Below the pieces are notes generated by a model. The model saw only the letters and a list, made by a program, of their open reading frames with translations, made no database searches and was not told the DNA's origin. Positions 176 to 49,864 of a stretch of 64,000 nucleotides of DNA are shown here, in pieces; within the stretch, counting starts at the first letter, position 1, and every line of letters begins with the position of its first letter. This DNA comes from Elusimicrobia bacterium GWA2_61_42 (GTDB taxonomy: Bacteria; Elusimicrobiota; Elusimicrobia; Elusimicrobiales; UBA9959): contig MGTU01000025.1 of NCBI GenBank assembly GCA_001799615.1, positions 124,001-188,000 of the forward strand. Reading direction: 5' to 3'. Both the position numbers and the translations under genes were made by a program.

Positions 176-3100
176 ATGAAAAGACTAGCTGCGGCGGTAC
201 TGCTGTTATTGGCGCAAACAGCCGCCGCGGAGAATAAAAGCGCCGGAAACCTGGCCGTGCTCGGGGACTCCCACGAATTTTCTTCGGGGAGCCTGGGCCT
301 GGCGGGGGGACTTTATGCCCTGGACGGCGCTTTCGCGGGTGTGGCGTACGGCACTTCCGCGGCCGGGGCGCTCGGCCTGGAATCGGGTTTTTACTCCAGG
401 ATGGTCTCCTCGCCCGCGGCGCCCGGCTACTCCGGTACTTCCACCGGCAGCTACGCGCTGGCCTGGGGCGGCGCCAGCCCGTCCGGCACGCTCTACGAGC
501 TGCAGGTTTCCACCTGGGGGGAGGCGGACCCGTACATGGCTTATTATTCCACGGACCAGAACGGGTACCCCGTGGAAAGCCTGGGCGCGAATACCAGCTT
601 TTATAATTTCATTTTCTCCAATTATATGGAAGGTGATTATTCCGCCATAGCTGCCACCACGGCCGTTACCTTGGCCGTAACGCCTTCGTCCGGGCCTTTT
701 ACGCTGGAAGACGCCGGTCACAGTACGATAAGTCTTTCTTTCGCCGGTTTCGAGAACCCCGCGGCGGTCTCGGGCAAACCCTGGGCTACGGACTCCTTGG
801 CGCTGGACGCCGCGCGCTACGGCCAGGCCTCGGTGGTTTACGGTTCCCACGTTTTCCTTGCCGGGGGCTTTAACGGCATCACTTTCTCCAGCGTGGTTTA
901 CCGCGGCGCCCTGGGTCCGGGCGGGACGCTGGCCGGCTGGGAAACCGCCTCCTATCTGCCCGCGGCGCGCTACGGCCACCAGCTGCTGGCCGCCAAAGGC
1001 AGGCTTTATTCGCTGGGGGGTTATGACTCCGCCGGCTCCCACGCCGAGGTCTGGTCGGCCGATATCTCTTCCGCGGGCGTGATCGGGGCCTGGCTGCCGG
1101 AGGCGCCGCTGCCGGCCGCGCTCTACTTCCACGCCGCGGCGGTGGCCGCGGGCAAGATCTATGTGTCGGGGGGCTACGCCAGCGGTTCGGGGGTGCAGGG
1201 TACTATTTACCGCTCGCAGGTGGGCGACGACGGCGTCCTGGGCGGTTGGACCGCTCCCGACGCGCTGCCGGCTCCGCGGTATTCGCACACCATGACCCTC
1301 ATCGCCGGCAGGCTTTACGTGGCCGGGGGCAAGGACGGGGCCGCCGCCAGGAGCGAAGTGTGGGCTACCCAGCTGGACGCCCAAGGCGAACTGCCTGTTT
1401 CCTGGACGGAGTACACACCCCTGCCGGCCCCGCGCTTCGGCCACAAGGCGCTGGCCGCGGCCAACAGCCTTTACGTTATAGGCGGCAGCAACGGAAGCGC
1501 GGCGCAGGCGCAGGTTTTCCTGTCCACCGTTTCGGCCGCCCTTTCCGCCCAGGCTCCCTGGCAGGCCTATAACCCGCTGCCTTCCGCGCGGCAATTCCCG
1601 GCCGCCGAGATCGTCGGGGAAAAACTCTGGGTTTTCGGCGGCTCCTCCGGCTCGGCCGCCCGCGGCGAGATCTTTACCTCCGATATTTTCGGCACGCAGT
1701 ACCTGGTCGAGGTCTCGTCCAACGCCGGCTTCGGCTCGGCCGTCAGGTCTTCGGGCTGGATGAGCAGCCCGGCCTGGCGCGAAGCGCTGCTGGAGCCCGG
1801 CCTGCAGTATTATTTCAGGGCCAAGGCCAGGAACTGGACCGGCACCGAGACCGGCTACTCCGCGGCCGGCTCCACCACCACCTACGCGGCTTTGCCCGCC
1901 ACCGCCCCCTGGAGCGGCGTCGGCGCGGCCGCGGGCACCGTGAACTGGCTGGCCAACGGCAATCCCGCCGGCTACACTTACGAAGTAGTGTATTCCAAAT
2001 TCCCGGACTTCTCCTCGCCGACCTCGCTGCAGACCACCGACAGCTTCTACACGCTCGGCGGGCTGCTGCCCACCACCACTTATTACGCCAAAGTCCGCGT
2101 CCTTAATATTTTCGGACGCAATACCCGCTACGTCGAGCTGCCGCCGCAGCGCACCAGTTTCGACCCGGCCCTGGACGTCTCCAGCCCCACCTATACCGAC
2201 AACCAGGCCGACTTTAACGACTGGAAGGGCACCAATACTTTCACCTGCGACGTGGATTTCGCTGACCTGGGCGGTTCCGGCATACAGAAGTTCCAGGTGC
2301 AGGTGGCGACGGACGCGGGCGGGGCCTCGGGCATAGTGGCGGCCTGGAGCGACGCCGTGACCGGCATAGACCAGGATGCCTATGCCGCCGACTGGACCAT
2401 CCCACAGGGAACCTGGGAGCAGCTGCCGGAGGGCGCTTCCAGCTATATCTCCGTGAAGGTCTTCGACAACTCCGGTAATTACGCGGCCTATACCGACCTG
2501 TTCTCCCTTATCAAGGACACCACCCCTCCCGAGATAGCCGTCACCTACAGCACGCCCGCCGTCTGGTACACGGAATACCCCGGCGACGTGGACGGCCTGC
2601 GCTTCGGCGACGGGCTGTCGGGCCTGGCCAAGGTACAGTACAGCGTCAGCGCCAACAAGCTGTTCGCCGACGCCGCCATCATCCCCTGGACCGATATCGG
2701 CGCCCTTACTCCGGGCGCTACCTGGTACCGGCCGGTCATCACTTACAGCTTCCCGCAGCTGGCCAACGCCGCTTCCAATTATTTCAGTTTCCGGGCCGTG
2801 GACGTGGCCGGCACCACGCGCACCGTGGTGGACGCTTTCGGGATAGGCAAGAACGTCAGCGGCCCCGTCGTGACCATCTCCACGCCGGCGCTGACCTTCC
2901 TGTCCACCTTCACCTGGCTCTCCGGCAACGCCTACCCGACCAATGATCACGCCATCCGGGGCACGGAAGTTTCGCTGCGCGACCTGAGCAACGGCCTGTA
3001 TTACAACGGCGCCGCTTTCCTCTCCGGCTCCCGGGCCTGGCAGGACGCCTCCGACACGGCCAGCACTTTTACGATCACCCTGCCCGGTCTGCCGCTGGTC

Positions 3101-4759
3101 AGCGGCCGGCAGTACCAGGCGGTAGCCCGCTCCTCGGACGCGGTGGGGGACTATTCGCAGGTGTTCGCTACTTACACCTTCACCTTTGACTCGCAGCCGC
3201 CCTCGGCCCTGGTCCTTTATCCCGCGGACGGGGCCACGGCGTATTCCGCGGCCTCCATCAGCGGCACGGCGGCCGACCCCGTTTCCGGCATCACCGCGGT
3301 GGACGTGACGCTGAAGCGTCTTTCCGACGGAAAATGGTGGAAGAACAGCCTCTCCTCCTGGGATACGGTCCCCGAGCCGCTGCAGGCCGGCACCACGCCT
3401 TACTGGACCTGGAACTTCAATTCCTACCTGCGCGACAGCCTGGCCAGCGGCGCGTCCTACTACGCCACTGTGCGCGCGGCGGACGCTTCCGGCCCCAGGA
3501 ATTACGGCGAGTTCCACGTGTCCGGCTCCACTTTCACCTACGTCGACGACACGCCGCCGCCGGCTACGCTTACACTGGCCGCGGCCCCCGGCGGAGTCAG
3601 CGGCGCCGTGGCCCTGTTCTGGCGGACGGCCGGTGACAACGGGGTTTCCGGCTACCTGCTCGCGGGGCGCTACAAGATAGCTTATTCCACGTTCACGGGA
3701 GCGGCGGTCTCTACCACGTCGGCCCAGGTGACCATCACCACCGCCACGCTGACCGCCGGTTCTACCCAGGCGGCCACGGTGACGGGGCTCAGCGCGTCAG
3801 CCTCTTACTACTTCACGCTTTGGACCGCGGATGACGCGCTGAACTGGTCGCCGGCCTCTAACGAAGCCTCGGCGACTTCGGGCGCCCCCGATACCGGCTC
3901 GCTCAGCGGCCGCGTTACAGACGCCTCCGGCAACCCGGTCACGGGCGTGCTGGTGGAAGCCCTGGGCGCTTCAGGCGCGGTCGAGGGCAGCGATTATACC
4001 GACGTTTACGGCAATTATTCCATTCCGTCGCTGAATTCGCTGTACCTCACCATAAGGGCGGTCTGGGCCGCCCAGGACATCGAGAGCTCGGTTTCCAAGG
4101 AACAGGTCCCCAACGGCTCTGCCGGCGTCAATTTCAGCCTGAGCGTAACCTACCAGCTGGCCAGCATCACCGGGTTCATCCCGGCGAACTTCCTGCCCCG
4201 GCAGGCGGCCAGGCCGGCCGGGTTCTATACCACCCGCGAAGTAAATATAAAGACCAGCGGGGCGTTCGTGGAGATCTACCGAAAGGGGCGGCGCATAGGG
4301 GCGGCCTTCACCGGCCAGGACGGCTCTTTCGCCGTGCCCAACCTGCTGCCCGGCACTTACAGCCTGCGCGTCTACAACGGCGCGGAGTACAGCAGGATGC
4401 AGACGGTAACTCTCCGCCCCGGCGAGAACCTGGTGTTCACCCCCAAGTGGGAGCTGCTTACCAAGGCCGGCGTTTACGCTTATCCCAACCCGGCCAGGAC
4501 CACGGTCAACTTCCATTTCACCTCCGGAGCTTCCGAGGGCGAAGTCGAGATCTTCGACCTGACGGGCCGCCTGGTAAAGAAACTTACCGGCGTTTCTTCG
4601 GACGCCGACAAGGTGCCCGGCTTCAACAGCAAGAAAATTTCCTGGGACCTGTCCCGCGAGAACGTCGCTTCCGGTGTCTACCTCTATATACTGCGCGTAA
4701 AGGACGCCGCCTCCGGCGAGTCGGAGAAAGTGGTAAAGAAATTTGCGGTCATACGCTGA
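176..4759 (+). CDS. Secreted kelch-repeat / fibronectin-type surface protein with FlgD/T9SS-like C-terminal domain
   Basis: This 1527-aa protein begins with a signal peptide (MKRLAAAVLLLL...AAA, cleavage near residue 19). Residues about 200-500 contain five or six kelch-type blades with recurring GG, YVxGG and paired-aromatic motifs. They are followed by fibronectin/Ig-like beta domains through about 1240 and a carboxypeptidase-regulatory-like domain (about 1240-1300 and again 1340-1420). The last 95 residues start with YPNPARTTVNF and contain VEIFDLTGR and SGVYLYIL, the signature shared by FlgD Ig-like domains and T9SS sorting tails. Role is inferred as an exported, surface-attached adhesion or carbohydrate-binding protein; the target is unknown. 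No good Shine-Dalgarno lies in the usual place (AGGAG is about 20 nt upstream of the ATG). Confidence 0.75.
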   Translation: MKRLAAAVLLLLAQTAAAENKSAGNLAVLGDSHEFSSGSLGLAGGLYALDGAFAGVAYGTSAAGALGLESGFYSRMVSSPAAPGYSGTSTGSYALAWGGASPSGTLYELQVSTWGEADPYMAYYSTDQNGYPVESLGANTSFYNFIFSNYMEGDYSAIAATTAVTLAVTPSSGPFTLEDAGHSTISLSFAGFENPAAVSGKPWATDSLALDAARYGQASVVYGSHVFLAGGFNGITFSSVVYRGALGPGGTLAGWETASYLPAARYGHQLLAAKGRLYSLGGYDSAGSHAEVWSADISSAGVIGAWLPEAPLPAALYFHAAAVAAGKIYVSGGYASGSGVQGTIYRSQVGDDGVLGGWTAPDALPAPRYSHTMTLIAGRLYVAGGKDGAAARSEVWATQLDAQGELPVSWTEYTPLPAPRFGHKALAAANSLYVIGGSNGSAAQAQVFLSTVSAALSAQAPWQAYNPLPSARQFPAAEIVGEKLWVFGGSSGSAARGEIFTSDIFGTQYLVEVSSNAGFGSAVRSSGWMSSPAWREALLEPGLQYYFRAKARNWTGTETGYSAAGSTTTYAALPATAPWSGVGAAAGTVNWLANGNPAGYTYEVVYSKFPDFSSPTSLQTTDSFYTLGGLLPTTTYYAKVRVLNIFGRNTRYVELPPQRTSFDPALDVSSPTYTDNQADFNDWKGTNTFTCDVDFADLGGSGIQKFQVQVATDAGGASGIVAAWSDAVTGIDQDAYAADWTIPQGTWEQLPEGASSYISVKVFDNSGNYAAYTDLFSLIKDTTPPEIAVTYSTPAVWYTEYPGDVDGLRFGDGLSGLAKVQYSVSANKLFADAAIIPWTDIGALTPGATWYRPVITYSFPQLANAASNYFSFRAVDVAGTTRTVVDAFGIGKNVSGPVVTISTPALTFLSTFTWLSGNAYPTNDHAIRGTEVSLRDLSNGLYYNGAAFLSGSRAWQDASDTASTFTITLPGLPLVSGRQYQAVARSSDAVGDYSQVFATYTFTFDSQPPSALVLYPADGATAYSAASISGTAADPVSGITAVDVTLKRLSDGKWWKNSLSSWDTVPEPLQAGTTPYWTWNFNSYLRDSLASGASYYATVRAADASGPRNYGEFHVSGSTFTYVDDTPPPATLTLAAAPGGVSGAVALFWRTAGDNGVSGYLLAGRYKIAYSTFTGAAVSTTSAQVTITTATLTAGSTQAATVTGLSASASYYFTLWTADDALNWSPASNEASATSGAPDTGSLSGRVTDASGNPVTGVLVEALGASGAVEGSDYTDVYGNYSIPSLNSLYLTIRAVWAAQDIESSVSKEQVPNGSAGVNFSLSVTYQLASITGFIPANFLPRQAARPAGFYTTREVNIKTSGAFVEIYRKGRRIGAAFTGQDGSFAVPNLLPGTYSLRVYNGAEYSRMQTVTLRPGENLVFTPKWELLTKAGVYAYPNPARTTVNFHFTSGASEGEVEIFDLTGRLVKKLTGVSSDADKVPGFNSKKISWDLSRENVASGVYLYILRVKDAASGESEKVVKKFAVIR

Positions 4760-4785: not shown

Positions 4786-6702
4786 ATGAAACAACAACAC
4801 CTCCTCAAAGTTCTGCTCTTAAGCCTGTTGCTCGCGCCGCCCGTTTTCGCACAGGACAACGCCAGCCTCCAGTTCACGGTGGCGGCCCCCGACCCCGTGA
4901 TGGCCGGCGACGAAGTGCGGCTGCAGACCCTGGTGGTCAACACCGGTACCCGCCCCTGGCCCAAGGGCAGCTATTACTGGACGGGCGAGATCTACACGCT
5001 GGAGGGGGAGAACAGGAAATTCCTGGCGCAGACCGAGTCGGTCTCGCCGGCGGAGGACGTGCCGGCGGGGGGCGCGCACGGGGTGCAGATCCCTTTCACC
5101 GTGCCGGAGACTTTGCAGGGCCGCCGGCTCCTTTACAGGCTGTTCCTGGTGAAGGACGGCAGGCGCATCCTTGAGACGGATTACAAGGGCTTCCAGGTCA
5201 TAGAGAAGGAATTCCGGCCGCCGCCCCCGCAGGATTTTAAAATAGGCGGCGACGTGACTTTCAGCTATAAAAATTCCAGCGGGGACGGCTGGGACAACCA
5301 CCAGGGCATAACCTCCGCCAATATCGTGGGCAAGGTGAAGCAGTCCTCATTCCTGTTCAACACCTACGTGGTGCACACCTACCACAGGCCTATAACCCCG
5401 ACGATAGTGCTGCTGAACTTCTACGCGCCCTGGGGTACGCTGGGCATAGGCGATATCTCGCCCGGCCTGACGCCGCTCTCCATGGACGGGCAGGGCATGA
5501 GGGGCGTTTCCTTCGAAAGGGCCCGGGACAAGCTGTCCGTCACGGCGGTGATAGGCAGGATAGTGGCCCCGCTGGAACCGGGGCCGTCGAGCGGCGGCCG
5601 GTTCGCGCGGTACTCGGGCGGGTTCAAGGCCGGCTGGCAGTTCACGCCGAACCTGAAAATAGCCGCCGACGCGGTGATGAGCCGCGACGACGAGCATTCC
5701 ATAAATATCAGCACCACGGCCATAACCATCAAGCCGCAGCAGAGCGTTGTTTACGGGCTCAACGCAGAGTGGCGGTTCTGGGACAAGTTCATGCTGAACA
5801 GCGACTACCAGATGAGTTCCTACCGCGCCGACCTCAACGCCGCGGAACCGGGCGCGGCCGGCACGGCCTGGAAGCAGGAAGTGAAGTACAAAGGCGCGCT
5901 GCTGACCGCGCGCACGGCGGTGTCCCGCATAGACCCCAAGTTCTCCTCCTTCGCCAGCCCGTCGGTGATCTCCGACCGGATGGTTCTGGACGGCGAGCTG
6001 GGGCTTTTCCCCGCGGACTGGACCACGTTCACGCTGGGCTATAACAAGTATTCCGACAACCTCGACAAGGACCCGGCCAAGACCACTACGGACCAGGCCC
6101 AGGTCACGCTGGCCAACTCCCTGCGCTTTCCCAGCCAGACCATGCTGAACACCTCCCTTATGACCAACACGGCCAAGGGCAAGCCCGCGGCCGTGCAGGA
6201 CAACCAGACCACCACGCTGAACTTCTCCGTGACGCAGCCGCTGAAGGCGCATACGCTGAACCTCGGCTACCAGATGAGCAGTTTCAAGGACAATACCCGC
6301 CTGTCGCACGACCTGGATACGGCGCTGGTCTCCTTCAACGGCTCCTTCCGGCTGACGCCCAGGCTGGCGATGTCGGCGGGCCTGGTGAACTCCGCCACCA
6401 AGGACAAGATAGATTCCACTACGGCCAAGAACAACAGCGTGACAGCGAACTTCTCCTATTCGCTGCCGCGCCGGTCCATGGCGTTCCAGTTCTGGACCAC
6501 GCTGTCCACCACCCAGAACGATTCACCGGTCTCGCCCGCCGATCTCAGCTCGGTTTCGCTGAACCTTGAGACAGCGTGGGTAAAAAGCCAGACCTCCCGC
6601 TTCACTTTCGGGGTGGGCGCCCTGTCCAAGACCGATAACCTGCACCCGGAGGCGGACTCGAGCGAGCTCAGCGTGCTGACCAGGTATAATTACTCGTTCT
6701 AG
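4786..6702 (+). CDS. Outer-membrane beta-barrel protein with N-terminal Ig-like domain
   Basis: The protein has 638 aa and a clear signal peptide ending at PPVFAQ. Residues about 25-140 look like an Ig/CARDB-type domain (alternating strands, VVNTGTRPW). From about 150 the sequence is a long run of amphipathic strands rich in aromatic and polar residues and ends in YNYSF, the terminal Phe expected by the Bam machinery. No plug or TonB box is evident, so a porin-like or scaffold barrel is more likely than a TonB receptor. It lies 26 bp after the kelch protein and is probably co-transcribed, and may serve as its outer-membrane partner (inference). A strong terminator follows. Confidence 0.65.
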   Translation: MKQQHLLKVLLLSLLLAPPVFAQDNASLQFTVAAPDPVMAGDEVRLQTLVVNTGTRPWPKGSYYWTGEIYTLEGENRKFLAQTESVSPAEDVPAGGAHGVQIPFTVPETLQGRRLLYRLFLVKDGRRILETDYKGFQVIEKEFRPPPPQDFKIGGDVTFSYKNSSGDGWDNHQGITSANIVGKVKQSSFLFNTYVVHTYHRPITPTIVLLNFYAPWGTLGIGDISPGLTPLSMDGQGMRGVSFERARDKLSVTAVIGRIVAPLEPGPSSGGRFARYSGGFKAGWQFTPNLKIAADAVMSRDDEHSINISTTAITIKPQQSVVYGLNAEWRFWDKFMLNSDYQMSSYRADLNAAEPGAAGTAWKQEVKYKGALLTARTAVSRIDPKFSSFASPSVISDRMVLDGELGLFPADWTTFTLGYNKYSDNLDKDPAKTTTDQAQVTLANSLRFPSQTMLNTSLMTNTAKGKPAAVQDNQTTTLNFSVTQPLKAHTLNLGYQMSSFKDNTRLSHDLDTALVSFNGSFRLTPRLAMSAGLVNSATKDKIDSTTAKNNSVTANFSYSLPRRSMAFQFWTTLSTTQNDSPVSPADLSSVSLNLETAWVKSQTSRFTFGVGALSKTDNLHPEADSSELSVLTRYNYSF

Positions 6703-6716: not shown

Positions 6717-6748
6717 AAAAAAGGCTGAGCTTTCGCTCAGCCTTTTTT
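6717..6748. terminator. Bidirectional rho-independent terminator
   Basis: An 8-bp perfect stem GGCTGAGC/GCTCAGCC (6723-6730 and 6735-6742) with a TTTC loop is flanked by six A on the left and six T on the right. It can therefore end both the rightward barrel operon and the leftward motor-like operon that converge here. Confidence 0.9.
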
Positions 6749-6771: not shown

Positions 6772-7656
6772 TCAGCCCTTTTTGCGGGAGGGCTTCGGGG
6801 CGGCTTCGTCCAAAGCCTGCAGGTATTGTTTAAGCTGTTCGTCGTCCGGCGAGAGCTCCAGCGCCCGCTGCCAGGCCAGCCTAGCGTGGCGGTAATCTTT
6901 GAGCTGGAGGTAGGCCGAACCGGCCCGTTTCAGGGCCATTACGTCATCGGGCTCCAGGCGCAGCACGCCTTCCAGTTCCTTGACGGCCAGGTAGAATTTG
7001 GAATCGTAGATGTCGTGGAGGGCCAGTTCCTTCTTGTGCTCCAGGATGCCCACGTTCTCAGGCTTGGTGTCGTTGAGCTTGAGCTGCGGTTCCTCGTCCT
7101 CCAGGGCGGCGATCAGGCGGCCCAGGGTGGTTTCGGCGGGGGCCAGTTCCGCGGCGTAGCGCAGCGCGTCATAGGCGAAAGGCAGGTCCTCCTTTTCTCC
7201 CAGCCAGGCCTGGATGCCGTCCGCGGCGGCGTTCCAGTGCTTCGCGGCCGAGGGCTTACGGGGCAGCAGGCCCGCTATCTTGTGCAGCTGCTTCTGGACC
7301 TTGAGGTAGTAGGGGTTGGTGGGATCGGTGGAAAGCAGTTCCTCCAGCTTGACCAGCGCGTCGGAGTAGCGGCCTTTTTCGAGCAGGCGGTTGAAGGCCG
7401 CCTTGAGGTTCACGGACGACCCCGCCATTTTCTGCCTGGCTTCCCCTATCATGTTGCGGGCGGTCACCTGCTTGGGGTCGGCGCGCAGCACCATGTTCCA
7501 GTATTCCATGGCCTTGGGATAATCGCCGGCCAGGTAGAGGCCGAAGGCCTTGTCGTAATATTCCTTGATCTCCGAGGAGGGCACGGCGGAGGCCGGCTGG
7601 GCGCCCGCTGCGGAGGCCAGGCAGAGCGCGGCTGCGAAGACGGCGTAAAATTTCAT
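6772..7656 (-). CDS. Exported tetratricopeptide-repeat protein, last gene of the motor-like operon
   Basis: This 294-aa protein has a signal peptide (cleavage near AAGAQ) and TPR helices at about residues 28-75, 90-130 and 215-285 (motifs such as YYDKAFGLYLAGDYPKAMEYW and DPTNPYYLKVQ). TPR domains scaffold protein complexes; here a periplasmic location is expected. Its ATG overlaps the TGA of the upstream MotB-like gene (ATGA, 7653-7656), so translation is probably coupled. The context suggests it works with the MotA/MotB/FliF-FliG-like proteins, perhaps as a periplasmic adaptor; this is inference. It ends 24 bp before the shared terminator. Confidence 0.75.
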   Translation of the reverse strand: MKFYAVFAAALCLASAAGAQPASAVPSSEIKEYYDKAFGLYLAGDYPKAMEYWNMVLRADPKQVTARNMIGEARQKMAGSSVNLKAAFNRLLEKGRYSDALVKLEELLSTDPTNPYYLKVQKQLHKIAGLLPRKPSAAKHWNAAADGIQAWLGEKEDLPFAYDALRYAAELAPAETTLGRLIAALEDEEPQLKLNDTKPENVGILEHKKELALHDIYDSKFYLAVKELEGVLRLEPDDVMALKRAGSAYLQLKDYRHARLAWQRALELSPDDEQLKQYLQALDEAAPKPSRKKG

Positions 7657-8309
7657 GAGTTGTTGACCCCTTTATCCAGCGCTCCCTGGCGCATGATTAT
7701 CATCTCTATCCTGCGGTTCTTCACCCGGTCGGCTTCGGCCTCGTTGGGCGCGGCCGGGCGGAATTCCCCGTAGCCGAAGGCCGTCAGGCGCGCGGGGGAG
7801 ACGCCTTTTTTTATCAGGTAATCTATGACCGAGAAGGCCCGCATGAGCGAAAGCTCCCGGTTAGAGGCGAATTTCTTGCCCAGCATCCTCGCCGCGTCAG
7901 TGTGGCCTTCCACCACTACCTGGTTGTCCATCTTCATCAGGCTGTCCGCCACCGGGTCCAAAACCTCTTTGGCCGATACCTTAAGGGCGGCGGAGCCCGA
8001 ATCGAAAAGGATGGGGGAGGCGAAGGTAAGGCGGATGCGGGAGGTGGTGACCTCCACGCCCAGCGACCCTTCCTGGATCTGTTTTTTCAGGTCCTCTTCC
8101 ACCTGCCTGGTGGCTTTCATTTCCTTGACCTTGGCCGCGGCTCCCTTTACCCCGAGCTCTTTCTGCAGCGCCGCTATAGCGGACTCGTAGTCCGACTTCT
8201 TCATGTTGAACGAGAAGACGTACAGCGCCAGGAAAAGGATGACGAGGCAGGACATGAGGTCCGCGAAGGGCACCATCCAAAGCTGCGAGTGGTCTTTCTT
8301 GTCGCTCAT
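7653..8309 (-). CDS. MotB-family stator protein, second paralogue
   Basis: The protein has 218 aa. The N-terminal cytoplasmic tail is short, and a single TM helix (about 10-32) carries the motif WMVPFADLMS, whose Asp17 matches the proton/sodium-binding Asp of MotB/PomB. A coiled/plug-like stretch follows (about 35-80), then an OmpA-type peptidoglycan-binding domain (about 95-210) with VVEGHTDAAR and NRRIEMI. It overlaps both neighbours by four bases (ATGA), consistent with a translationally coupled stator operon. ExbD/TolR is unlikely because those lack the OmpA domain. Whether it pairs with the upstream MotB paralogue as a heterodimer or acts separately cannot be decided from sequence. Confidence 0.85.
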   Translation of the reverse strand: MSDKKDHSQLWMVPFADLMSCLVILFLALYVFSFNMKKSDYESAIAALQKELGVKGAAAKVKEMKATRQVEEDLKKQIQEGSLGVEVTTSRIRLTFASPILFDSGSAALKVSAKEVLDPVADSLMKMDNQVVVEGHTDAARMLGKKFASNRELSLMRAFSVIDYLIKKGVSPARLTAFGYGEFRPAAPNEAEADRVKNRRIEMIIMRQGALDKGVNNS

Positions 8310-8980
8310 TTGCGTGAAATGATTATCTCTATCCTGCGGTTCCTGGCCCGGCCCTGCGGCGTGGCGTTAGAGGCGGCCGGCCTGTGCTCGCCGTAGGCGG
8401 CCGCGATAAGGCGCTGCTCGGGGACGGCGTACCTCCCGGCCATCAGCGTCACCACGGCGTCGGCCCTGGCCGCCGACAGTTCCCAGTTGGTGGCGTAATC
8501 CCCGGATTTTACCGGGACGTTGTCGGTATGCCCCTCCACGATGATGTCGTTGGGCAGACGGACCACGACCTTGGCCACGGCGCCCAGCACTTCGGAGGAG
8601 GTCTTGCTCAAAGCGGCCTTGCCCGAAGCGAAAAGCACCGGCGCGGCGATATTGACCTTTATCTGTTTGTCGGTGATCTGCACGTCGGCCATGTCCTTCA
8701 GGCCGGCCTTGTAAAGCTCTTCGGCCAGCTTTTTCGCCACGTCCTCTTCCTGGAACTTCTGTAGCACCTTGTCCGCTTCCTTTTCTTTGGCGGAAACTTT
8801 CTTATCCTTGTCGAAGCCGGACATGAACATCGCCTGGGCCTCGCTCTCCGGCTGAACATTGAAGACGTACAGGATCAGGAAGAACAGCATCAGGTTGGTC
8901 ATGATGTCGGAAAGCACCACCAGCCACAGCGGGTTTTCCGCCGCCTTATGTCCTGAATAGCGTTCGATGAAGAACTTCAT
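8306..8980 (-). CDS. MotB-family stator protein, first paralogue
   Basis: The protein has 224 aa. I chose the ATG at 8978-8980 rather than a longer open frame because the extension reads as out-of-frame MotA sequence and because this ATG overlaps the MotA stop as ATGA. The TM helix (about 18-40) contains WLVVLSDIMT, with Asp25 in the ion-binding position. Residues 45-95 are Lys/Glu-rich, as in MotB linkers, and the OmpA domain (about 100-222) has VEGHTDNVPV, YGEHRPAA and NRRIEIII. In flagella MotB anchors the stator to peptidoglycan; here there are no flagellar structural genes alongside. Having two MotB genes per MotA resembles some gliding and PomB-type stator sets. Confidence 0.87.
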   Translation of the reverse strand: MKFFIERYSGHKAAENPLWLVVLSDIMTNLMLFFLILYVFNVQPESEAQAMFMSGFDKDKKVSAKEKEADKVLQKFQEEDVAKKLAEELYKAGLKDMADVQITDKQIKVNIAAPVLFASGKAALSKTSSEVLGAVAKVVVRLPNDIIVEGHTDNVPVKSGDYATNWELSAARADAVVTLMAGRYAVPEQRLIAAAYGEHRPAASNATPQGRARNRRIEIIISRK

Positions 8981-9750
8981 TTTACCGTTTTGGCTTTGCG
9001 GCGCAGCGCCAGCGAGAGGTAGCCTTCCAGTTTTTTGGAGACCAGCCACGGGACGTCGCCTTCGTAGATGGACAGCACGCCCTTGGCTATGATCTCCCGG
9101 CTGAGGATGTCCTCGTCGGAATAATAGCCGAGCTTGCTGGCGATGGGCAGGAACAGGAAGTTGGCCGAGAAGATGCCGTAGAACGACGCGGTCATGGCGA
9201 TGGCCATGGAGGAGCCCATCATGGCGGGGTTGGAAATATTGCGGAGCACCTGCACGACGCCGATCAGCGTGCCCAGCAGGCCGAAGATGGGGGCGAAGGT
9301 GCCGGCCGAGGTGAAGATGTTGGTCTGCTGCTGGTGGCGCAGGCGCGTGGTGTTGATGTCGTGCTCCATGCGCTCGCGCAGGATGTGGATGTCCACGCCG
9401 TCGACCATCATCTGGATAGCGTCGGTCAGGAAGGCGTGGGGGGAGGCGCGCAGCTCCCCGGCCAAAGCCTCTATGCCGTTCTTCTTGCTGAGCTCGGAGA
9501 AACTGACGATGGAGCGGATCAGGTCGGCGATGGGCGGGCGCTTGGGCGGGAAGAGGACGATCTTCATCGACGAGCTCGTCCATTTAAGGGCCGCCCATGG
9601 GTAGGAGATCATCACCGACCCGAGGGTGCCGCCGAAAATAAGCACGATGGCTTCCCAGTTGAGCAGGAACCTGAGCATGCCGCCGGCCGAGAGCACGAAA
9701 ACTATGACGCCTATGCCGATCGTGGCGCCGAGTAAGGTCATCAAATCCAT
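8977..9750 (-). CDS. MotA/PomA-family stator protein
   Basis: The protein has 257 aa and four predicted TM helices (about 3-22, 30-50, 150-175, 183-205), with the cytoplasmic loop between TM2 and TM3 that characterises MotA rather than the shorter ExbB/TolQ. The TM3 motif FAPIFGLLGTLIG and TM4 motif FLFLPIA keep the two prolines required for torque generation. The loop retains Lys/Glu-rich segments (SKKNGIEALAGEL) where E. coli MotA contacts FliG. A good SD (GAGGAG) precedes the ATG. It lies 23 bp downstream of the FliF/FliG-like gene and overlaps the MotB gene by ATGA. Function is inferred as an ion-driven stator powering whatever the FliG-like domain is attached to. Confidence 0.88.
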   Translation of the reverse strand: MDLMTLLGATIGIGVIVFVLSAGGMLRFLLNWEAIVLIFGGTLGSVMISYPWAALKWTSSSMKIVLFPPKRPPIADLIRSIVSFSELSKKNGIEALAGELRASPHAFLTDAIQMMVDGVDIHILRERMEHDINTTRLRHQQQTNIFTSAGTFAPIFGLLGTLIGVVQVLRNISNPAMMGSSMAIAMTASFYGIFSANFLFLPIASKLGYYSDEDILSREIIAKGVLSIYEGDVPWLVSKKLEGYLSLALRRKAKTVK

Positions 9751-9773
9751 TAGCGTTCTCCTCTCTTATCCGT

Positions 9774-11288
9774 TCAGGGTTTGGGCGCCGCGGCGGGCGG
9801 CGTGGCCGCGGCGGCGGGCTTCAGGCCGGCGGGGGCCGGGGCGGGCTGCGGTTTCAGTCCGGGCAGGGCCGGCTGGGGCTTAAGACCCGCCGCGGGGGCG
9901 GTCCCGGGTTTGGGCGCCAGCGCCGCGGGCTTCTGGCCTTGCGGGGTCAGGGTGATGAACCCTTCTTTGATCAGCTGGCGCAGGGCTTCCACCACCTTGG
10001 CGCGCTCGGCCTTGTAGGCGTCGGCGGGCATGGACCGCGTGAGGTCCAGTTCCTGGCGGAAGCGCTCCTGCATGCCGCCGGAAAGCTTGGCCAAAAAAGT
10101 TTCGGCGTGGGGCGAGCCCTTCAGCGCGGCGGCTATCACGCGCATCGGCAGGCGGCGGGCCAGGGTCTGGGCCTGCGAAGGGTCCAGGGAGGCCAGGTCG
10201 GCGAGTTTCACGATAGCGGCGTTGAGCTTCCTGGACATGGCGGGGTCCAGGCGGCCGAAGGCCGACAAAGCTTTTTCCTGCACGGCTTCATCCAGGCCGT
10301 TGAGGATGCTGATGGCTTTATCTTCACCGCCTACGACGTAATCCAGGGCCGCGAGGAGGTCCGCTTCAAGGGCTTTTATGCGGCTTTCGGTCATCAGCGT
10401 GACCTTGGGCAGCGCGGCCAGGGCTTCGACGCTCCTGGGATAAAGGGCTTCGGCCAGTTTGGACGCCAGGTCTTCCGGCGCGTAGTTGAGCACGATGGTC
10501 AGGTCCTCCACCGGGCGCGTCTTAAGGATGAAGGCCAGGCTGGAGGCGCTGTTGGCGTTAAGGAACCAGAACGGGGGCTTCCTGCCGTCGGCGGACTGCT
10601 GCGCGCGCGCCGCTTCTACGGCCTTGGCCGGGGTTTCCTTCTCGCGCTGGTCGGCGCGGTAGTCCTGGTCGGGGCCGGCGCCCGCCGCCGCTTTAACGCT
10701 GAAAGCTTCCACGAAGGCCTTGGCGCTCTTTGTGAGGGGGGAGAGGAAGGACAGGACGGTAAAAAGCGCCAGCAGCGCCACTACCACTATCCAGGCCAGG
10801 CTCCAGAGGTTCGGCGGAAGGAACAGGTCGGCGAAGGCCAGGGGGCGGGTTTTGCGGAAATTCATCTTTTCCACGCTGACCAGGTCCTGCCTTTCGGGGG
10901 GCAGGCCCAGCAGGCCGGCGGCCAGTTTGCGCGCGAGCTGCGTGTCCTCCTCCGAGACGGCTTTGTCCAGGATAAGGCTGGCGGAAAGTTTCTTTACCAT
11001 CGTGAGCGTGGAGGACAGGGACGGCTCGCCCATCTTGTCCTTCTCGGGAATGCCGGGCAGGATCTCGGCCGATTTTTTTTCCTGTTCCTGGAGCTCGGCG
11101 GAAATTATCACTATGATATCTTCGGTGCCGAGGGCTTCCGAGAGCACCATCCTCACCCTTTTCTCGAGAGAATTTTCCAGCGCGAGCCTGGCTTCAAGGG
11201 AGGACCTGCTGCCCGTCTGGGCCCGCAGCGGCGCGTGCGGCGCCAGCGCCAGCAGCCCGAACAAGGAGAGCATAAGTATCCGCTTCAT
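9774..11288 (-). CDS. FliF C-terminal domain fused to FliG middle and motor domains (signal peptide, one TM helix)
   Basis: The protein has 504 aa. The signal peptide runs to about residue 24. Residues 28-145 resemble the periplasmic C-terminal (YscJ/FliF-C, RBM3-side) region of FliF: LEKRVRMVLSEALG, then VKKLSASLILD and LPPERQDLVSVEKMNF. A TM helix follows at about 158-180. After a charged linker, residues about 230-440 resemble FliG-M and FliG-C: RPVEDLTIVLNYAPEDLA, YVVGGEDKAISILN, ALKGSPHAETFLAKLS and an RxEL torque-helix position. FliG-N, which normally binds the FliF tail, is missing, as expected if the two proteins are covalently joined. The C-terminal 50 residues are Pro/Ala-rich with repeated GLKP. 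It heads an operon with MotA, two MotB and a TPR protein. The family match is by eye only. Confidence 0.78.
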   Translation of the reverse strand: MKRILMLSLFGLLALAPHAPLRAQTGSRSSLEARLALENSLEKRVRMVLSEALGTEDIIVIISAELQEQEKKSAEILPGIPEKDKMGEPSLSSTLTMVKKLSASLILDKAVSEEDTQLARKLAAGLLGLPPERQDLVSVEKMNFRKTRPLAFADLFLPPNLWSLAWIVVVALLALFTVLSFLSPLTKSAKAFVEAFSVKAAAGAGPDQDYRADQREKETPAKAVEAARAQQSADGRKPPFWFLNANSASSLAFILKTRPVEDLTIVLNYAPEDLASKLAEALYPRSVEALAALPKVTLMTESRIKALEADLLAALDYVVGGEDKAISILNGLDEAVQEKALSAFGRLDPAMSRKLNAAIVKLADLASLDPSQAQTLARRLPMRVIAAALKGSPHAETFLAKLSGGMQERFRQELDLTRSMPADAYKAERAKVVEALRQLIKEGFITLTPQGQKPAALAPKPGTAPAAGLKPQPALPGLKPQPAPAPAGLKPAAAATPPAAAPKP

Positions 11289-11488: not shown

Positions 11489-12742
11489 ATGAAGAATAAA
11501 TTGTGCGGCGCGCTGCTTTGCCTTGTCATGGTCTCCGGCGCTTTCGCGGCCGTTACCTTCGACCAGAAGGGCAGCGTCCCTGAAATGGTTTCGCAGTTGA
11601 AGTCAGTCAGCCCGGGCGCGGAGATAGTGCCGCTCCCCGGCGATCCGAAGGCGCTCGCCAAGTGGACCGTAATGGTCTACGTGAACGCCAAGAACAACCT
11701 GGAGACCTACGGGCTCAAGGACGTCAATGAGATGGAGCAGGTCGGGTCAACCCCCGAAGTTAATATCGTGGCCGAGCTCGGCCGCATCAACGGCTACTCC
11801 TCCGAAGACGGGGATTGGAAAGGCTCGCGCCGCTATCTGGTCCAGAAGGACGCCGACGCCTCAAAGATCACTTCCCCCGTGGCGCTGGAACTCCCCAAAT
11901 CCGACATGGGCAACTGGAAGAACCTGGTGGAATTCGTGAAATGGTCGCAGGCGCGGTATCCCGCCCAGCGCTACGCGCTGGTGATCTGGAATCACGGCTC
12001 GGGCTGGAACAAGAATATGCCAGCGGAATCCGGCAAGGGCATCTCCTACGACGATGAAACCGGTTCCCATATGACCACCCAGCAGCTTAAGCTGGCCCTG
12101 GCCGAAACCGGCAAAATGGAGATCCTCTCCATGGACGCCTGCCTGATGCAGATGATGGAAGTGGCTTACGAAGCCCGCACCGGCGCCGACTACATCGTGG
12201 CCTCGGAAGAGACCGAGCCGGGCGACGGCTACACCTACAATACCTGGCTGGCCCCGCTGGCCGCCAAGCCTTCCATGACCCAGGCCGAACTCTCCAAAGT
12301 CATGGTGGATTCCTACACGGACCACTACCAGTCTATCAACCAGGGCGCCACGCAGTCCTCGGTACGGACCGAAAACCTTTACAAGCTGGGGCAGCTGGTG
12401 AACGGCTGGACCTCCGCCGTAATGGCCGCCGGTGAGCTGGCCGGAGTAAAGAACGCCCGCGCCAAGGCGCAGGCTTTCTATTACTCCAGCAACAAGGACC
12501 TGGCCCACTTCGTAAAGCTGGTCAACGACGGCTCGCAGAACGCCGAAGTGAAGACCAGGGGCGCCGAGCTCCTGGGTTTCCTGTCCGGTTCCGTCATCTA
12601 CCACAACAGGGCCACCGGCGCCAAGTACGTCAACGCCTCGGGGCTCGCGATCTATATCCCGACCTCCTATACCGCGTCTTACGACGCGCTGGAGTGGGCT
12701 AAAGATTCCAATTGGGACGACTTCACCAAGTGGATAAAATAA
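11489..12742 (+). CDS. Secreted clostripain-family (C11) cysteine peptidase
   Basis: The protein has 417 aa. A signal peptide ends near GAFAA (residue 21) and the C11 domain covers about 58-400. The catalytic dyad is visible as His169 in NHGSGW and Cys218 in MDACLM, both in the family's usual context. The N-terminal strand KWTVMVYVNAKNN and EVAYEARTGADYIVASE are also typical. C11 peptidases cleave after Arg/Lys and are often self-processing; the substrate here is unknown. It is a stand-alone transcription unit with its own promoter, a strong SD and a terminator. No C-terminal sorting tail is seen, so a periplasmic or freely secreted enzyme is likely. Confidence 0.88.
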   Translation: MKNKLCGALLCLVMVSGAFAAVTFDQKGSVPEMVSQLKSVSPGAEIVPLPGDPKALAKWTVMVYVNAKNNLETYGLKDVNEMEQVGSTPEVNIVAELGRINGYSSEDGDWKGSRRYLVQKDADASKITSPVALELPKSDMGNWKNLVEFVKWSQARYPAQRYALVIWNHGSGWNKNMPAESGKGISYDDETGSHMTTQQLKLALAETGKMEILSMDACLMQMMEVAYEARTGADYIVASEETEPGDGYTYNTWLAPLAAKPSMTQAELSKVMVDSYTDHYQSINQGATQSSVRTENLYKLGQLVNGWTSAVMAAGELAGVKNARAKAQAFYYSSNKDLAHFVKLVNDGSQNAEVKTRGAELLGFLSGSVIYHNRATGAKYVNASGLAIYIPTSYTASYDALEWAKDSNWDDFTKWIK

Positions 12743-12895: not shown

Positions 12896-13936
12896 ATGAG
12901 AAAGCAGGCTATCAGGTCCGTCCTTATCGCCGCGGCCGCGCTGGCCGCCTGGCCTTTCTGCTCCCCGGTTTTCGCCGGCGGGGCCGGCACCACTTCGGCT
13001 AATTTCCTGAAGATCCCGGCAGCCGCCCTGCCGTCCGGCATGGGCGAGGCTTACACGGCCATGGTGGGGCCCGATTCCGCGCTTTACAATCCCGCCGGCC
13101 TCGGCCTGCTCGGTTACTCTTCTTTCTCGGGTTCGCATAACCAGTACATCGACGGCATAACGCAGGAATACCTGGCGCTCACCTGGCGCTCGCCTTACGG
13201 CACCGTCGGCGCGTCTTTCTCGACGCTTTCCAGCGGCGACATCGACGCTTACGATTCCAACGACATGCTCATCGGCAACACGTCTACCGGGCACCGCATG
13301 CTGTCGTTCTCCTTCGCGCAGTCCTGGCCCCACTTCAACTCGGACATCGGCAAACTGGACCCCATGCTGATAACCCCCAGCTGGACCCGGGTCGAGCCGG
13401 TCAAGGATTACCGCCCCAAGGCCTACCGGCTTTCCGTCGGAGGCACCGTCAAGAAGATCAGCGAAAAACTCGGCAAGGATTCAGCCGGCACCTACGCGTA
13501 CGACGCCGGCGTCCTGCTGGTGCTGCCGTACCATTTTCACGTCGGCGCGTCCGCCATGAATATGGGGGGCAAGGAAAAATTCGTCGAGGAAACCTATAAG
13601 CTGCCCTCCGCCCTGCGCTTCGGCATCGCCAAGGATTTCCACACCGTCAACGACGTGATGGTCTTTACGGTGGCTTCCGACATCGTAAAGTATTCCGACC
13701 GGGACACCCTTAACGCCACCGGCCTGGAGGCGGACATCATGAAGATGTTCCAGATGCGCCTGGGCTACAAGACGCAGAAGGATTCGGGGTCGCGCATCTG
13801 CGGCGGCTTCGGCATGAACTTCGACCGGCTGTCGGACAAGAACAGCTTCCTGCGCGGGGCGCGCATGGACTATGCCTACGTGGATTACGGCAGCCTGGGC
13901 GCGACGCACCGTGTAGGCGTGCAATTCATCTGGTAG
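12896..13936 (+). CDS. PorV/PorQ/UPF0164-family outer-membrane barrel protein
   Basis: The protein has 346 aa from the ATG at 12896. An upstream in-frame start at 12833 would overlap the -10 region and put 21 non-signal residues before a good signal peptide, so I rejected it. After the signal peptide (ending PVFAGG) comes GTTSANFLKIPAAALPSGMGEAYTA, then DSALYNPAGLGLL, the N-terminal signature of PorV and UPF0164 proteins. The rest alternates strands typical of a 14-strand FadL-like barrel. PorV is the type IX secretion shuttle; UPF0164 members also occur where T9SS has not been shown. Together with the sorting-tail-like C-terminus at 4.4-4.7 kb it hints at T9SS-like export, but no PorK-N, PorL/M or SprA is in the window. 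Confidence 0.75.
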   Translation: MRKQAIRSVLIAAAALAAWPFCSPVFAGGAGTTSANFLKIPAAALPSGMGEAYTAMVGPDSALYNPAGLGLLGYSSFSGSHNQYIDGITQEYLALTWRSPYGTVGASFSTLSSGDIDAYDSNDMLIGNTSTGHRMLSFSFAQSWPHFNSDIGKLDPMLITPSWTRVEPVKDYRPKAYRLSVGGTVKKISEKLGKDSAGTYAYDAGVLLVLPYHFHVGASAMNMGGKEKFVEETYKLPSALRFGIAKDFHTVNDVMVFTVASDIVKYSDRDTLNATGLEADIMKMFQMRLGYKTQKDSGSRICGGFGMNFDRLSDKNSFLRGARMDYAYVDYGSLGATHRVGVQFIW

Positions 13937-43836: not shown

Positions 43837-44450
43837 CTGGGCGCAAAGCCTCTAACATAGGTGAATTGCTGGAAGGGATCAAGGCCGCCGACGACGCGGT
43901 TATTTACCACCACACCCACCGCTTTATTAAACAGTCACACCACCTGGTGCCCGAGGGCGCCAACGACTTCGCCTATTGGGTGACAAATACCGTGCAGGCC
44001 GACCGCCTTGGAGAGGAACTGACCTCAATAGACATCGTGCGGTACAACTCCCTGGCGGATATACGCAATGCGTTCGTAAAAATGCTGGAGCGGCACATTG
44101 AGGAAAACCCCGGGCCTATGCGTACCGTGGCGCCTGGACGGGAATTCCACTTTATGCGGGCCATAAGGTTCTCACTTCCCACCGAGTGTTCGGCAAAGGA
44201 TTATGCTTCGTTCATCGAGTGTTTGAAGAACGTAAGCGTCTCCAGCCTTTATCTGCATGTTTTCGAGGCCAGGCTGCGGCCGCCTTATGGCGTGGACGAC
44301 TTCTCCCATTGGTTCAAGACTAATTTCAACGACGAGAAAGTAGAGCAGGAACTTTCCCGCCTTGACCCGTATTCCTACACGCTGGAAAGCCTGAGGCAAA
44401 GAATAATCCGCATAATAGAGCGCCGTCTCACGGAGGCCAGAAATGTCTAA
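43776..44450 (+). CDS. DUF5752-family protein associated with TreT
   Basis: The protein has 224 aa from ATG 43776 (SD GGGGGAAG just upstream; a TTG at 43764 is in frame but overlaps the SD). It appears to be two copies of a helical domain: AVIYHHTHRFIKQSHH...FAYWV in the first half and SLYLHVFEARLRPPYGVDDFSHWF in the second. DUF5752 genes are commonly found beside trehalose synthase genes; no activity is known to me. It overlaps otsB by 61 bp and treT by 8 bp, so translation of all three is likely linked. Confidence 0.82.
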   Translation: MGTTALESFKFCTRLTLTEVTGRKASNIGELLEGIKAADDAVIYHHTHRFIKQSHHLVPEGANDFAYWVTNTVQADRLGEELTSIDIVRYNSLADIRNAFVKMLERHIEENPGPMRTVAPGREFHFMRAIRFSLPTECSAKDYASFIECLKNVSVSSLYLHVFEARLRPPYGVDDFSHWFKTNFNDEKVEQELSRLDPYSYTLESLRQRIIRIIERRLTEARNV

Positions 44451-45663
44451 AATAGACGAATATATCCCCGCGGCGGGCCGCAGCGCCATCGAAGAACTCA
44501 AAATAATCGCCGCAAGGCTTAAAGGCAAGACCATTCTTAACGTCAATTCCACGGCGGTAGGCGGCGGCGTGGCTGAAATATTGAACCGCATGCTCCCGAT
44601 GATGACTGAATTGGGGATAAAGCCGCGCTGGGAACTTATTAAAGGCGGGGAAGACTTTTATGCGGTTACCAAGAAATTCCATAACGCCTTGCACGGAACG
44701 CGCCAGGAACTGACTCCTGCCGATTTCCAGCTTTACCGTGACACGCTTAAGGTCAACTTGGAGACTCTGAACCTCGACGCCGATATAGCCCTTATCCACG
44801 ACCCGCAGCCTGCCGGGCTTATAGACAAGAAGCCGGCGGGCGCTAAATGGGTATGGCGCTGCCACATCGACCTCTCCAATCGCCAGGCCGATGTCTGGGA
44901 TTTCCTGCACGGTTATGTTTCACGCTACGACGCCGCGGTCATTTCAGCCCCGTCCTTCTCGCAGGCGCTGCCTATTAAGCAGTTCCAGGTGCCGCCCTCT
45001 ATCGATCCGCTGGCCGACAAGAATAAAGAACTTGCCGCCGAGGAGATAGCGGAGATAATGGGGAGACTTAATATCCCCGTGGATAAGCCTTTGATAACGC
45101 AGGTTTCCCGTTTCGACCGGTTAAAGGACCCGCTGGGCGTGATAGAGGCTTTTAAAAAGATACAACCCTACGTCACGGCGCGACTCCTGTTGGTGGGTGG
45201 CAGCGCGGACGACGATCCTGAAGGTTCCCAGGTCCTGGCTGAAGTCCGTGCGGCGGCCGAGGGTGATCCGGACATCATAGTGTTGTGTCTGCCCCCGACC
45301 AGCAATATTGAGATAAATGCCATCCAGCGCGCCTCAGCGATAATTTTACAGAAGTCGCTGAAAGAAGGTTTCGGCCTGACGGTTTCAGAAGCGCTATGGA
45401 AAGGCAAGCCGGTGATAGCCGGCGCGGTGGGCGGCATACCGTTGCAGATAACCCACAAGTACTCCGGTATATTGACGCGTACTATAGACGGCACGGCCTA
45501 CTGGATGAAGCGACTGTTGCATGAACCCGCCTACGCCAAGAAACTGGGGGAGAACGGCCGCGAGCACGTTCGGGAGAATTTCCTGCTTACTCGTCACTTG
45601 CGCGATTACCTGCTGCTGGCTCTCTACCTTGAAAGCGGGAAACAGGACTTTATCCACCTCTAG
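44443..45663 (+). CDS. treT: Trehalose synthase / glycosyltransferase family 4 (TreT)
   Basis: The protein has 406 aa. TreT joins nucleotide-diphosphate glucose directly to glucose, giving trehalose without a phosphorylated intermediate. N-terminal NVNSTAVGGGVAEIL, WRCHIDLSN and IDPLADKN are typical, and the GT4 nucleotide-sugar site appears as VSRFDRLKDPLGVIEAF and KEGFGLTVSEALWKGKPVIAG. It completes a set in which both OtsA/OtsB and TreT routes are encoded in one operon, possibly for use with different glucose donors or in different conditions. No terminator is obvious after the stop before the tRNA-half copy. Confidence 0.93.
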   Translation: MSKIDEYIPAAGRSAIEELKIIAARLKGKTILNVNSTAVGGGVAEILNRMLPMMTELGIKPRWELIKGGEDFYAVTKKFHNALHGTRQELTPADFQLYRDTLKVNLETLNLDADIALIHDPQPAGLIDKKPAGAKWVWRCHIDLSNRQADVWDFLHGYVSRYDAAVISAPSFSQALPIKQFQVPPSIDPLADKNKELAAEEIAEIMGRLNIPVDKPLITQVSRFDRLKDPLGVIEAFKKIQPYVTARLLLVGGSADDDPEGSQVLAEVRAAAEGDPDIIVLCLPPTSNIEINAIQRASAIILQKSLKEGFGLTVSEALWKGKPVIAGAVGGIPLQITHKYSGILTRTIDGTAYWMKRLLHEPAYAKKLGENGREHVRENFLLTRHLRDYLLLALYLESGKQDFIHL

Positions 45664-45694
45664 CCTGCAGGCGATCGCTTTACCTATAGAGTGT

Positions 45695-45723
45695 TTGCAT
45701 TTCCCGCGGAGGTGTGCTATACT
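45695..45723 (+). promoter_or_regulatory. Promoter of tRNA-fMet 5'-half copy 2
   Basis: TTGCAT (45695-45700) and TATACT (45718-45723) are 17 bp apart, with an extended TGC before the -10. Spacing to the tRNA half is the same as at the complete gene. Confidence 0.65.
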
Positions 45724-45728
45724 ATTCC

Positions 45729-45759
45729 TGCGGGGTAGAGCAGCCTGGTAGCTCGCAAG
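45729..45759 (+). pseudogene. tRNA-fMet 5'-half copy 2 (truncated gene, probable att site)
   Basis: These 31 bases are identical to 49865-49895, the 5' part of the complete tRNA-like gene. After GCTCGCAAG the sequence diverges (CGGGTCGAG...), so anticodon loop, T-arm and acceptor 3' strand are missing. The intact promoter and a downstream terminator at 45799 mean a short transcript of about 90-100 nt may still be made. It marks the border between the trehalose island and the Fic/TIR island. Confidence 0.75.
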
Positions 45760-45798
45760 CGGGTCGAGTAGGCGAATCAGTACATATCACAAAGCATC

Positions 45799-45823
45799 AG
45801 CACGACGAGAGTCGTGCTTTTTT
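45799..45823 (+). terminator. Rho-independent terminator after tRNA half-copy 2
   Basis: AGCACGAC/GTCGTGCT (45799-45806 and 45811-45818) with a GAGA loop and a run of T's. A second dyad TTCTCCTGA/TCAGGAGAA (45825-45833 and 45838-45846) follows immediately. Confidence 0.85.
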
Positions 45824-45868
45824 ATTCTCCTGACGAATCAGGAGAAGTCGCTAGACATACCTAGAAGC

Positions 45869-45903
45869 GATCACTAATCCGATCACCATTCTCAACCGAT
45901 CAC
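45869..45903. repeat. GATCAC repeat array, left end of Fic/TIR island
   Basis: Three direct GATCAC hexamers start at 45869, 45881 and 45898. The intervening bases also match the array at 49734-49786, so the two are homologous. The arrangement resembles recombinase or excisionase arm sites near an att core. Confidence 0.6.
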
Positions 45904-45968
45904 TTTTCGATGAATCAGGGTCGTATAGCTGCCGAATTGGCACGATGCCGCCTAAGCCGATGTGCCTT

Positions 45969-45997
45969 TTGACTTTACGAATAACTTTATGTAAACT
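45969..45997 (+). promoter_or_regulatory. Promoter of the Fic gene, leaderless configuration
   Basis: TTGACT (45969-45974) and TAAACT (45992-45997) are 17 bp apart, and the ATG at 46004 follows the -10 box by exactly six bases. No SD is present. Confidence 0.6.
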
Positions 45998-46003
45998 TTA
46001 TGC

Positions 46004-47005: not shown

Positions 47006-47060
47006 TCAGGGCACTACCTTCGATGTAGATTCTACTTTGGTAATGATTTGGGAGGCATTT

Positions 47061-47606: not shown

Positions 47607-47697
47607 CGCGCATAAGTGGATTCTTGTTTCTTATCATTTGCTAGACTATAATTCGGAACTTGTTCGTCCGATTTTAATGTCTAGTGGGGGAGATGCC

Positions 47698-48624: not shown

Positions 48625-48666
48625 ACCGCGCGACCCTTTTCACGTTTTCTGGGGTTAAGGTGTATC

Positions 48667-49668: not shown

Positions 49669-49733
49669 ATGGCGGCGGGAGTCATATCAATAGGCATCAG
49701 TAGACATCACTTCACTGAATCTTTCGCCGAAGT

Positions 49734-49786
49734 GATCACAAATCCGATCACCATCATTTAGTTGATCACTTTTTTCATGTGATCAC
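49734..49786. repeat. GATCAC repeat array, right end of Fic/TIR island
   Basis: Four direct GATCAC hexamers start at 49734, 49746, 49764 and 49781. The first three share their surroundings (AATCC between repeats 1 and 2, then CACCAT) with the array at 45869. It lies about 80 bp before the complete tRNA gene. Confidence 0.6.
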
Positions 49787-49830
49787 TACATATCACCGTC
49801 TGAAAATGTAACTTTCTCCGACGAGAAATG

Positions 49831-49859: not shown

Positions 49860-49864
49860 ACATG

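Follow-up and report, generated by a model that had tools for sequence, protein, structure and literature searches.

The DNA considered here is a 64,000-nucleotide stretch of the genome of Elusimicrobia bacterium GWA2_61_42 (contig MGTU01000025.1, positions 124,001 to 188,000; "the window"), in which five adjacent minus-strand genes, running from 11288 to 6772, encode what is very probably a filament-less rotor and stator of the flagellar type, set in the inner membrane. We propose, with a probability of roughly 0.55, that this rotor-stator is proton-driven and that a coupling spanning the envelope links it with surface proteins, for gliding or adhesion. An original prediction, made from the sequence alone, had read the five genes as a FliF-FliG fusion, MotA, two MotB proteins and a TPR protein; Pfam, profile searches against the PDB, AlphaFold and Foldseek agree with that assignment, and its coordinates were exact. 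To this the present analysis adds five paralogous modules in the genome, partners in the outer membrane and among surface proteins resembling those of the type IX secretion system (T9SS), and an asymmetric pair of MotB proteins.

A fused rotor protein and its stator

The operon and its terminator comprise the following features:

9774..11288, minus strand: FliF-FliG fusion ("FliFG"), 504 aa (Pfam FliG_C, PDB profile matches, AlphaFold, Foldseek)
8977..9750, minus strand: MotA, 257 aa, flagellar type, stator ring (Pfam MotA_ExbB 3.8e-24, PDB 9lu9, NCBIfam)
8306..8980, minus strand: MotB1, 224 aa, plug/transmembrane segment with Asp25, OmpA peptidoglycan-binding domain (Pfam and alignment)
7653..8309, minus strand: MotB2, 218 aa, plug/transmembrane segment with Asp17, OmpA peptidoglycan-binding domain (Pfam and alignment)
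6772..7656, minus strand: TPR protein with signal peptide, 294 aa (Pfam TPR; operon position kept)
6717..6748, no strand assigned: bidirectional intrinsic terminator, also serving the convergent gene at 4786-6702 (stem and folding z)

The junctions, measured in gene order, are +23 bp followed by three 4-bp ATGA overlaps (-4, -4, -4), as originally described, and the operon is closed by the terminator, a perfect 14-pair stem with z = -5.7.

FliFG begins with a signal/transmembrane helix, followed by a periplasmic domain resembling a ring-building motif (RBM; residues ~25-142), a transmembrane helix (~158-180) and a cytoplasmic part made up of FliG_M and FliG_C (~245-447) and a Pro/Ala-rich tail. 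FliG_C was recognized by Pfam above its cut-off (residues 347-447, 1.4e-14) and found in 30/30 aligned orthologues, and FliF_C was matched at a sub-threshold level (residues 97-144, 1e-3). A profile built from 59 relatives retrieved FliG middle/C-terminal structures from the PDB at 1.6e-48 and FliF at 2.1e-7, the homology to FliF covering its C-terminal RBM3/transmembrane part only. The AlphaFold model, from a 59-row alignment, exceeds a pLDDT of 90 over most of both domains: the periplasmic domain folds as alpha-beta-beta-alpha-beta, a single helix crosses the membrane, and the cytoplasmic part is entirely helical and includes the FliG ARM/motor fold on which the original reading of the protein depended; Foldseek placed FliG first (7.5e-8) and FliF RBM3 rings next, at weak E-values. 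Judged by its sequence and predicted structure, FliFG is a minimal M-ring protein with its own FliG torque domain. Its FliM-binding EHPQ motif is not conserved, in agreement with the lack of FliM and FliN in the genome. Some six-frame matches to FliFG carry in-frame stops, which we judged to be alignments overrunning the end of the gene.

MotA is likewise of flagellar type—its closest PDB chain is the flagellar MotA 9lu9 (1.6e-53), and its NCBIfam matches are to flagellar motor models (to 4.8e-57, below their curated cut-offs). A basic pair occupies the position that we take to be equivalent to Arg90 of E. coli MotA, and it is kept in the orthologues aligned. This pair on the MotA surface, the retention and predicted folding of both FliG_M and FliG_C, and torque-helix residues that are invariant or nearly so in FliFG of the window type (K390, R409, E413 and R418) make it very improbable that FliFG is a static scaffold, with MotA, MotB1 and MotB2 forming an Agl-like motor that acts on some other cytoplasmic or periplasmic target. 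What speaks for such an arrangement is that the FliG torque charges are conserved only in part and that AglRQS of Myxococcus xanthus comprises one MotA-like and two MotB-like proteins (PMC9389320).

Both MotB proteins have Pfam MotB_plug and OmpA matches, and no Pfam ExbD match was found in either. We compared 31 window-type pairs, 20 from genomes of the same family and 11 from distant loci, and found that the transmembrane Asp was gone from exactly one partner in 7/31 and from both in 0/31. The residue is replaced by C in MotB1 of two loci (L093 and L097 in our numbering), and in MotB2 by A in L100 and L176 and by N in L162, L163 and L179; these seven losses correspond to about five events on the FliFG tree, with L100 placed by its genome. 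The lack of double losses is not significant alone, the losses being too few. However, because loss of the Asp has been tolerated repeatedly in one partner, MotB1 and MotB2 appear to act as one heteromeric unit, and we consider it likely that they form a heterodimer, an asymmetric pair. Separately, the MotB1 genes of L093 and L097 are 82% identical, yet their FliFG proteins group with different genomes, which suggests, from the sequences, the exchange of a single stator gene. An apparent MotB-MotB fusion in L182 was rejected as an artefact of a masked run of N.

Conservation, copies and the missing flagellum

The motor gene order is kept in 20 genomes of the family (the 20th being L100) and in 11 loci of distant families or classes. 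The ATGA overlap between MotB1 and MotB2 is exact in all 19 genomes measured, and the TPR gene holds the same position in the family genomes and in distant loci L160-L162, L175 and L182; we infer that its product is a periplasmic adaptor. All five genes are under purifying selection, with ratios of nonsynonymous to synonymous substitution (dN/dS) of 0.06-0.16 against the near relative L081.

The source genome (2.95 Mb in 34 contigs, ~95% complete) has FliG_C in five genes, every one of them accompanied by a MotA and a MotB gene of its own, and two further genes of the MotA/TolQ/ExbB family elsewhere. The export gate FlhA is absent from the whole genome, as are the C-ring proteins FliM and FliN (FliMN_C), which are present in 2/41 relatives. 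No export, rod or hook genes were seen beside the motor operon, in line with the earlier description, and no rod, hook or filament genes were seen near the five motor loci, although no genome search dedicated to them was run. Across the phylum, FlhA occurs in 3/295 genomes and FliFG in 122/295, covering 60 of the 90 genera, so that a survey of conservation in Elusimicrobiota revealed a phylum-wide system. The FliFG tree has three main paralogue groups, each found across several families: the two-MotB group (the window type), the FlbD group and the kinase group. Among named genomes, scanned with the window-type alignment (profile A1 being too diverse for that scan), all those that matched are Elusimicrobia/Elusimicrobiota or unnamed bins, and several are titled as groundwater isolates.

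Since dN/dS is low and the paralogue groups span families, the FliFG system is old, multiplied and maintained; and since FlhA, FliM and FliN are missing, four further loci of like kind are present and the distribution is phylum-wide, the operon does not represent one fragment of a divided flagellar gene set. The original prediction had named a complete flagellar regulon elsewhere in the genome as a finding that would overturn it; judged by the absence of FlhA, FliM and FliN, the genome has no such regulon. A decaying remnant, or a part detached from a real flagellum, can hardly be upheld: FliF, FliG, MotA, MotB and FlbD are all flagellar genes, and FlhA does occur in three sampled genomes of the phylum, but selection on the genes, the invariant operon, five paralogous loci and paralogue classes that each extend over several families all oppose it. 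The reduced ion-driven machine that had been predicted is thus supported by its rotor and stator parts and by the lack of FlhA, FliM and FliN, whereas its output, whether gliding, secretion or protein transport, remains a matter of inference.

One family (f15) lacks FliFG, and of the genomes sampled from another (f2) just one has it; both families have smaller genomes. These are presumably the host-associated lineages; if so, the absence would fit a motility role.

Two observations concern the sister loci. A 74-aa FlbD-family protein lies inside the giant-protein motor operon (L013:12804-13028), at a position conserved across families. Histidine kinases and response regulators sit in the kinase-group loci and are at times fused to FliFG; fusions of FliFG with a histidine kinase (L164, L172, L173) may connect the motor directly to signalling.

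Outer-membrane barrels, surface proteins and a putative T9SS-like translocon

Three genes flanking the operon encode candidate partners:

4786..6702, plus strand: OMP638, N-terminal Ig-like domain and ~26-stranded outer-membrane barrel (AlphaFold, Foldseek, synteny)
176..4759, plus strand: secreted kelch/fn3 protein of 1527 aa, ending in a T9SS type A C-terminal sorting domain (CTD) (TIGR04183, Por_Secre_tail, synteny)
12896..13936, plus strand: PorV/PorQ-family outer-membrane protein, encoded upstream in the divergent direction and probably associated (NF033709, synteny)

OMP638 was modelled with a pLDDT of 87, and Foldseek found generic large outer-membrane barrels only, the best being MtrB (6r2q). 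Its gene is convergent to the motor operon in the window and lies within the operon in L162, L175 and L182. The 1527-aa protein, whose gene adjoins that of OMP638 in most family genomes, scores 38.1 bits against TIGR04183 (cut-off 23) and 33 bits against Por_Secre_tail (cut-off 27), and the PorV/PorQ protein scores 96.9 bits against NF033709 (cut-off 90) and is a neighbour in 17 of the 18 relatives L081-L098.

In 40 FliFG loci drawn from further families and classes, similar partners recur. Most of these FliFG genes are preceded by a gene for a PorV/FadL-type barrel that contains TPR repeats and whose profile matches PDB PorV at 2.9e-27 (the window has instead a free-standing TPR protein and, close by, the PorV/PorQ protein), and large secreted proteins with FlgD-Ig/T9SS-like tails are found upstream of the barrel-FliFG pair. 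Ahead of the FlbD-type locus of the source genome lies an open reading frame of 11,824 aa (C21:36767-72241, that is, L184:2767 to L185:18241). It has both a signal peptide and a T9SS-like tail and is rich in Thr, Ser, Ala and Gly, with 0.3% Cys and weak bacterial Ig-like matches only. Other Elusimicrobiota have frames of 17,000-18,641 aa beside FliFG, and one of 19,358 aa elsewhere in its genome, with the same tail. The strong CTD tail subtype occurs in 81/122 genomes with FliFG versus 0/168 without (Fisher p ~2e-41, uncorrected for phylogeny). This genetic linkage argues that the motor is probably coupled to outer-membrane and surface proteins, and suggests the reuse of a flagellar motor for moving or releasing material at the cell surface.

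A somewhat different role would be that of an envelope machine unrelated to motility, comparable to Tol/Ton or to Agl-Nfs, which moves spore-coat glycan. Force would then be exerted on outer-membrane barrels for import or for lipid or polysaccharide handling, or mechanical load would be sensed by motor-linked histidine kinases. The kinases and response regulators of the sister loci, fused to FliFG in other families, are in keeping with this, as is OMP638, a large barrel resembling transporters. We nevertheless regard it as rather unlikely: the giant adhesin-like proteins to which the motor is linked indicate an action directed outward, OMP638 has no transporter family match in the domain libraries used, and a FliG torque ring is not known as a part of the Tol, Ton or Agl systems.

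The T9SS-like tails raise the matter of export. The source genome encodes a 1813-aa SprA/Sov-like protein (contig C22; L197:2368-7809) that matches TIGR04189 at 1.1e-33 and 115.7 bits, below the cut-off of 200, and for which a single-sequence search of the PDB gave no match. Relatives of it, also below cut-off, occur in 209/248 phylum genomes, families without FliFG included, and on these sequence matches Elusimicrobiota apparently hold an unrecognised T9SS-like system. GldM (TIGR03517) had no credible match in 199 genomes, and GldL was not searched. The main rival to our proposal is accordingly one in which the motor energises T9SS-like secretion in place of GldLM, with CTD proteins exported through the divergent SprA and shuttled by PorV. 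The co-occurrence of the SprA/Sov-like protein, the PorV/PorQ protein and A-type CTD cargo in the source genome, together with the failure to detect GldM, speaks for it, and Bacteroidota use one motor for both jobs (PMC13104615). On the contrary, five motors per genome exceed the need of one translocon, GldM is perhaps too diverged for detection, and SprA-like genes are equally present in the f2 and f15 genomes, almost entirely without FliFG. The motor is therefore not required for secretion as such, which favours adhesin movement (gliding or attachment) over the powering of export and leaves the secretion role unlikely, though slightly less so than the envelope machine described above.

Two further features of the window were noted. 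The gene at 11489-12742 encodes a secreted clostripain-family (C11) protein; in most near relatives this gene and the motor operon diverge, and L100 has it in duplicate. Over 44000-64000, G+C falls from ~0.58-0.66 to 0.47-0.53 and codon usage shifts, which suggests an acquired island.

Known relatives and a proposed mechanism

The system shares with the flagellar motor homologous FliF RBM3, FliG middle/C-terminal domains, MotA and MotB (plug, Asp and OmpA domain); it differs in the fusion of FliF with FliG, the product having only one RBM, in the absence of FliM/FliN and FlhA, in the presence of two MotB proteins, in partners that include outer-membrane barrels and surface proteins, and in its five copies per genome. 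By sequence, the MotA fold and the transmembrane Asp of MotB would place it with the ion-driven 5:2 motors of the MotAB branch. A Salmonella mutant with a FliF-G fusion deletion shows that a fused rotor still turns (PMC9389320), and a fused rotor is therefore mechanically plausible; that fusion was, however, engineered in a full flagellum and is not a natural stand-alone system.

Among gliding machineries, that of Bacteroidota (GldLM, SprA, PorV, SprB), in which an adhesin of ~6,500 aa is moved by a rotary motor (PMC13104615), shares PorV-family barrels, A-type CTDs and surface proteins of very large size in the neighbourhood of a motor driven by protons, and the SprA-like protein is a candidate for the corresponding translocon. 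Here, by contrast, the motor is FliFG/MotAB, GldM is undetected and SprA falls below its curated cut-off. The Agl-Glt system of M. xanthus (AglR, AglQ and AglS) has in common one MotA-like and two MotB-like proteins, TPR proteins and outer-membrane proteins. MotB1 and MotB2 carry both plug and OmpA domain, whereas AglQ and AglS are of the ExbD/TolR type, without an OmpA domain (PMC3169522). Whether AglQ and AglS form heterodimers is a question that the literature leaves open (PMC9389320), and Agl-Glt is not described as having a FliF/FliG rotor. We also considered Zorya (ZorAB), since MotB1 and MotB2 match ZorB models, and rejected it: MotA has no ZorA match, the ZorB matches reflect generic MotB similarity, and FliFG, MotA, the TPR protein and OMP638 have no match in the defence library.

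In the mechanism that we propose, FliFG subunits would build one ring, with the RBM-like domains in the periplasm and the fused FliG domains forming a cytoplasmic torque ring, so that a FliM/FliN switch would be unneeded. The FliG ring would be driven by stators in which a MotA pentamer encloses a MotB1/MotB2 heterodimer, itself fixed to the peptidoglycan through its OmpA domains. As the periplasmic ring rotates, the TPR protein would relay force to outer-membrane barrels (OMP638 and PorV-like proteins), and these would pass it to surface proteins that end in T9SS-like tails, so that adhesins are moved in gliding or surface attachment. Gliding or adhesin movement as the specific output stands a little short of even odds. 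More tentatively still, we suggest that a rotor-stator derived from the flagellum, with at least three old paralogous types in the phylum, drives megadalton T9SS-tailed adhesins, the window type doing so with a heterodimeric MotB1/MotB2 stator.

Several observations weigh against this proposal. An in-register comparison shows that FliFG has not kept several charges of the FliG torque helix, and in MotA the position that we equate with the canonical Glu98 is not conserved. The giant CTD gene adjoins the FlbD-type module and not the two-MotB module of the window, near which the CTD protein has only 1,527 aa, and some families have their giant gene at a distance from FliFG. Because the CTD profile (A7) derives from genes next to FliFG, the association test reported above is biased toward that subtype. 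Finally, gliding Elusimicrobiota were not found in the literature searched.

In the open literature searched (subscription papers and outside preprints excepted), no FliF-FliG-MotAB system without a flagellum has been described for Elusimicrobiota, and the machine may be categorically new rather than a variant of the flagellar-type motor. The locus provides a concrete, conserved and multi-copy case with named partners, which bears on how flagellar motors evolve and are reused and on whether a FliG ring can drive force across two membranes, and it supplies natural sequences for deciding if two different MotB-like subunits share one stator.

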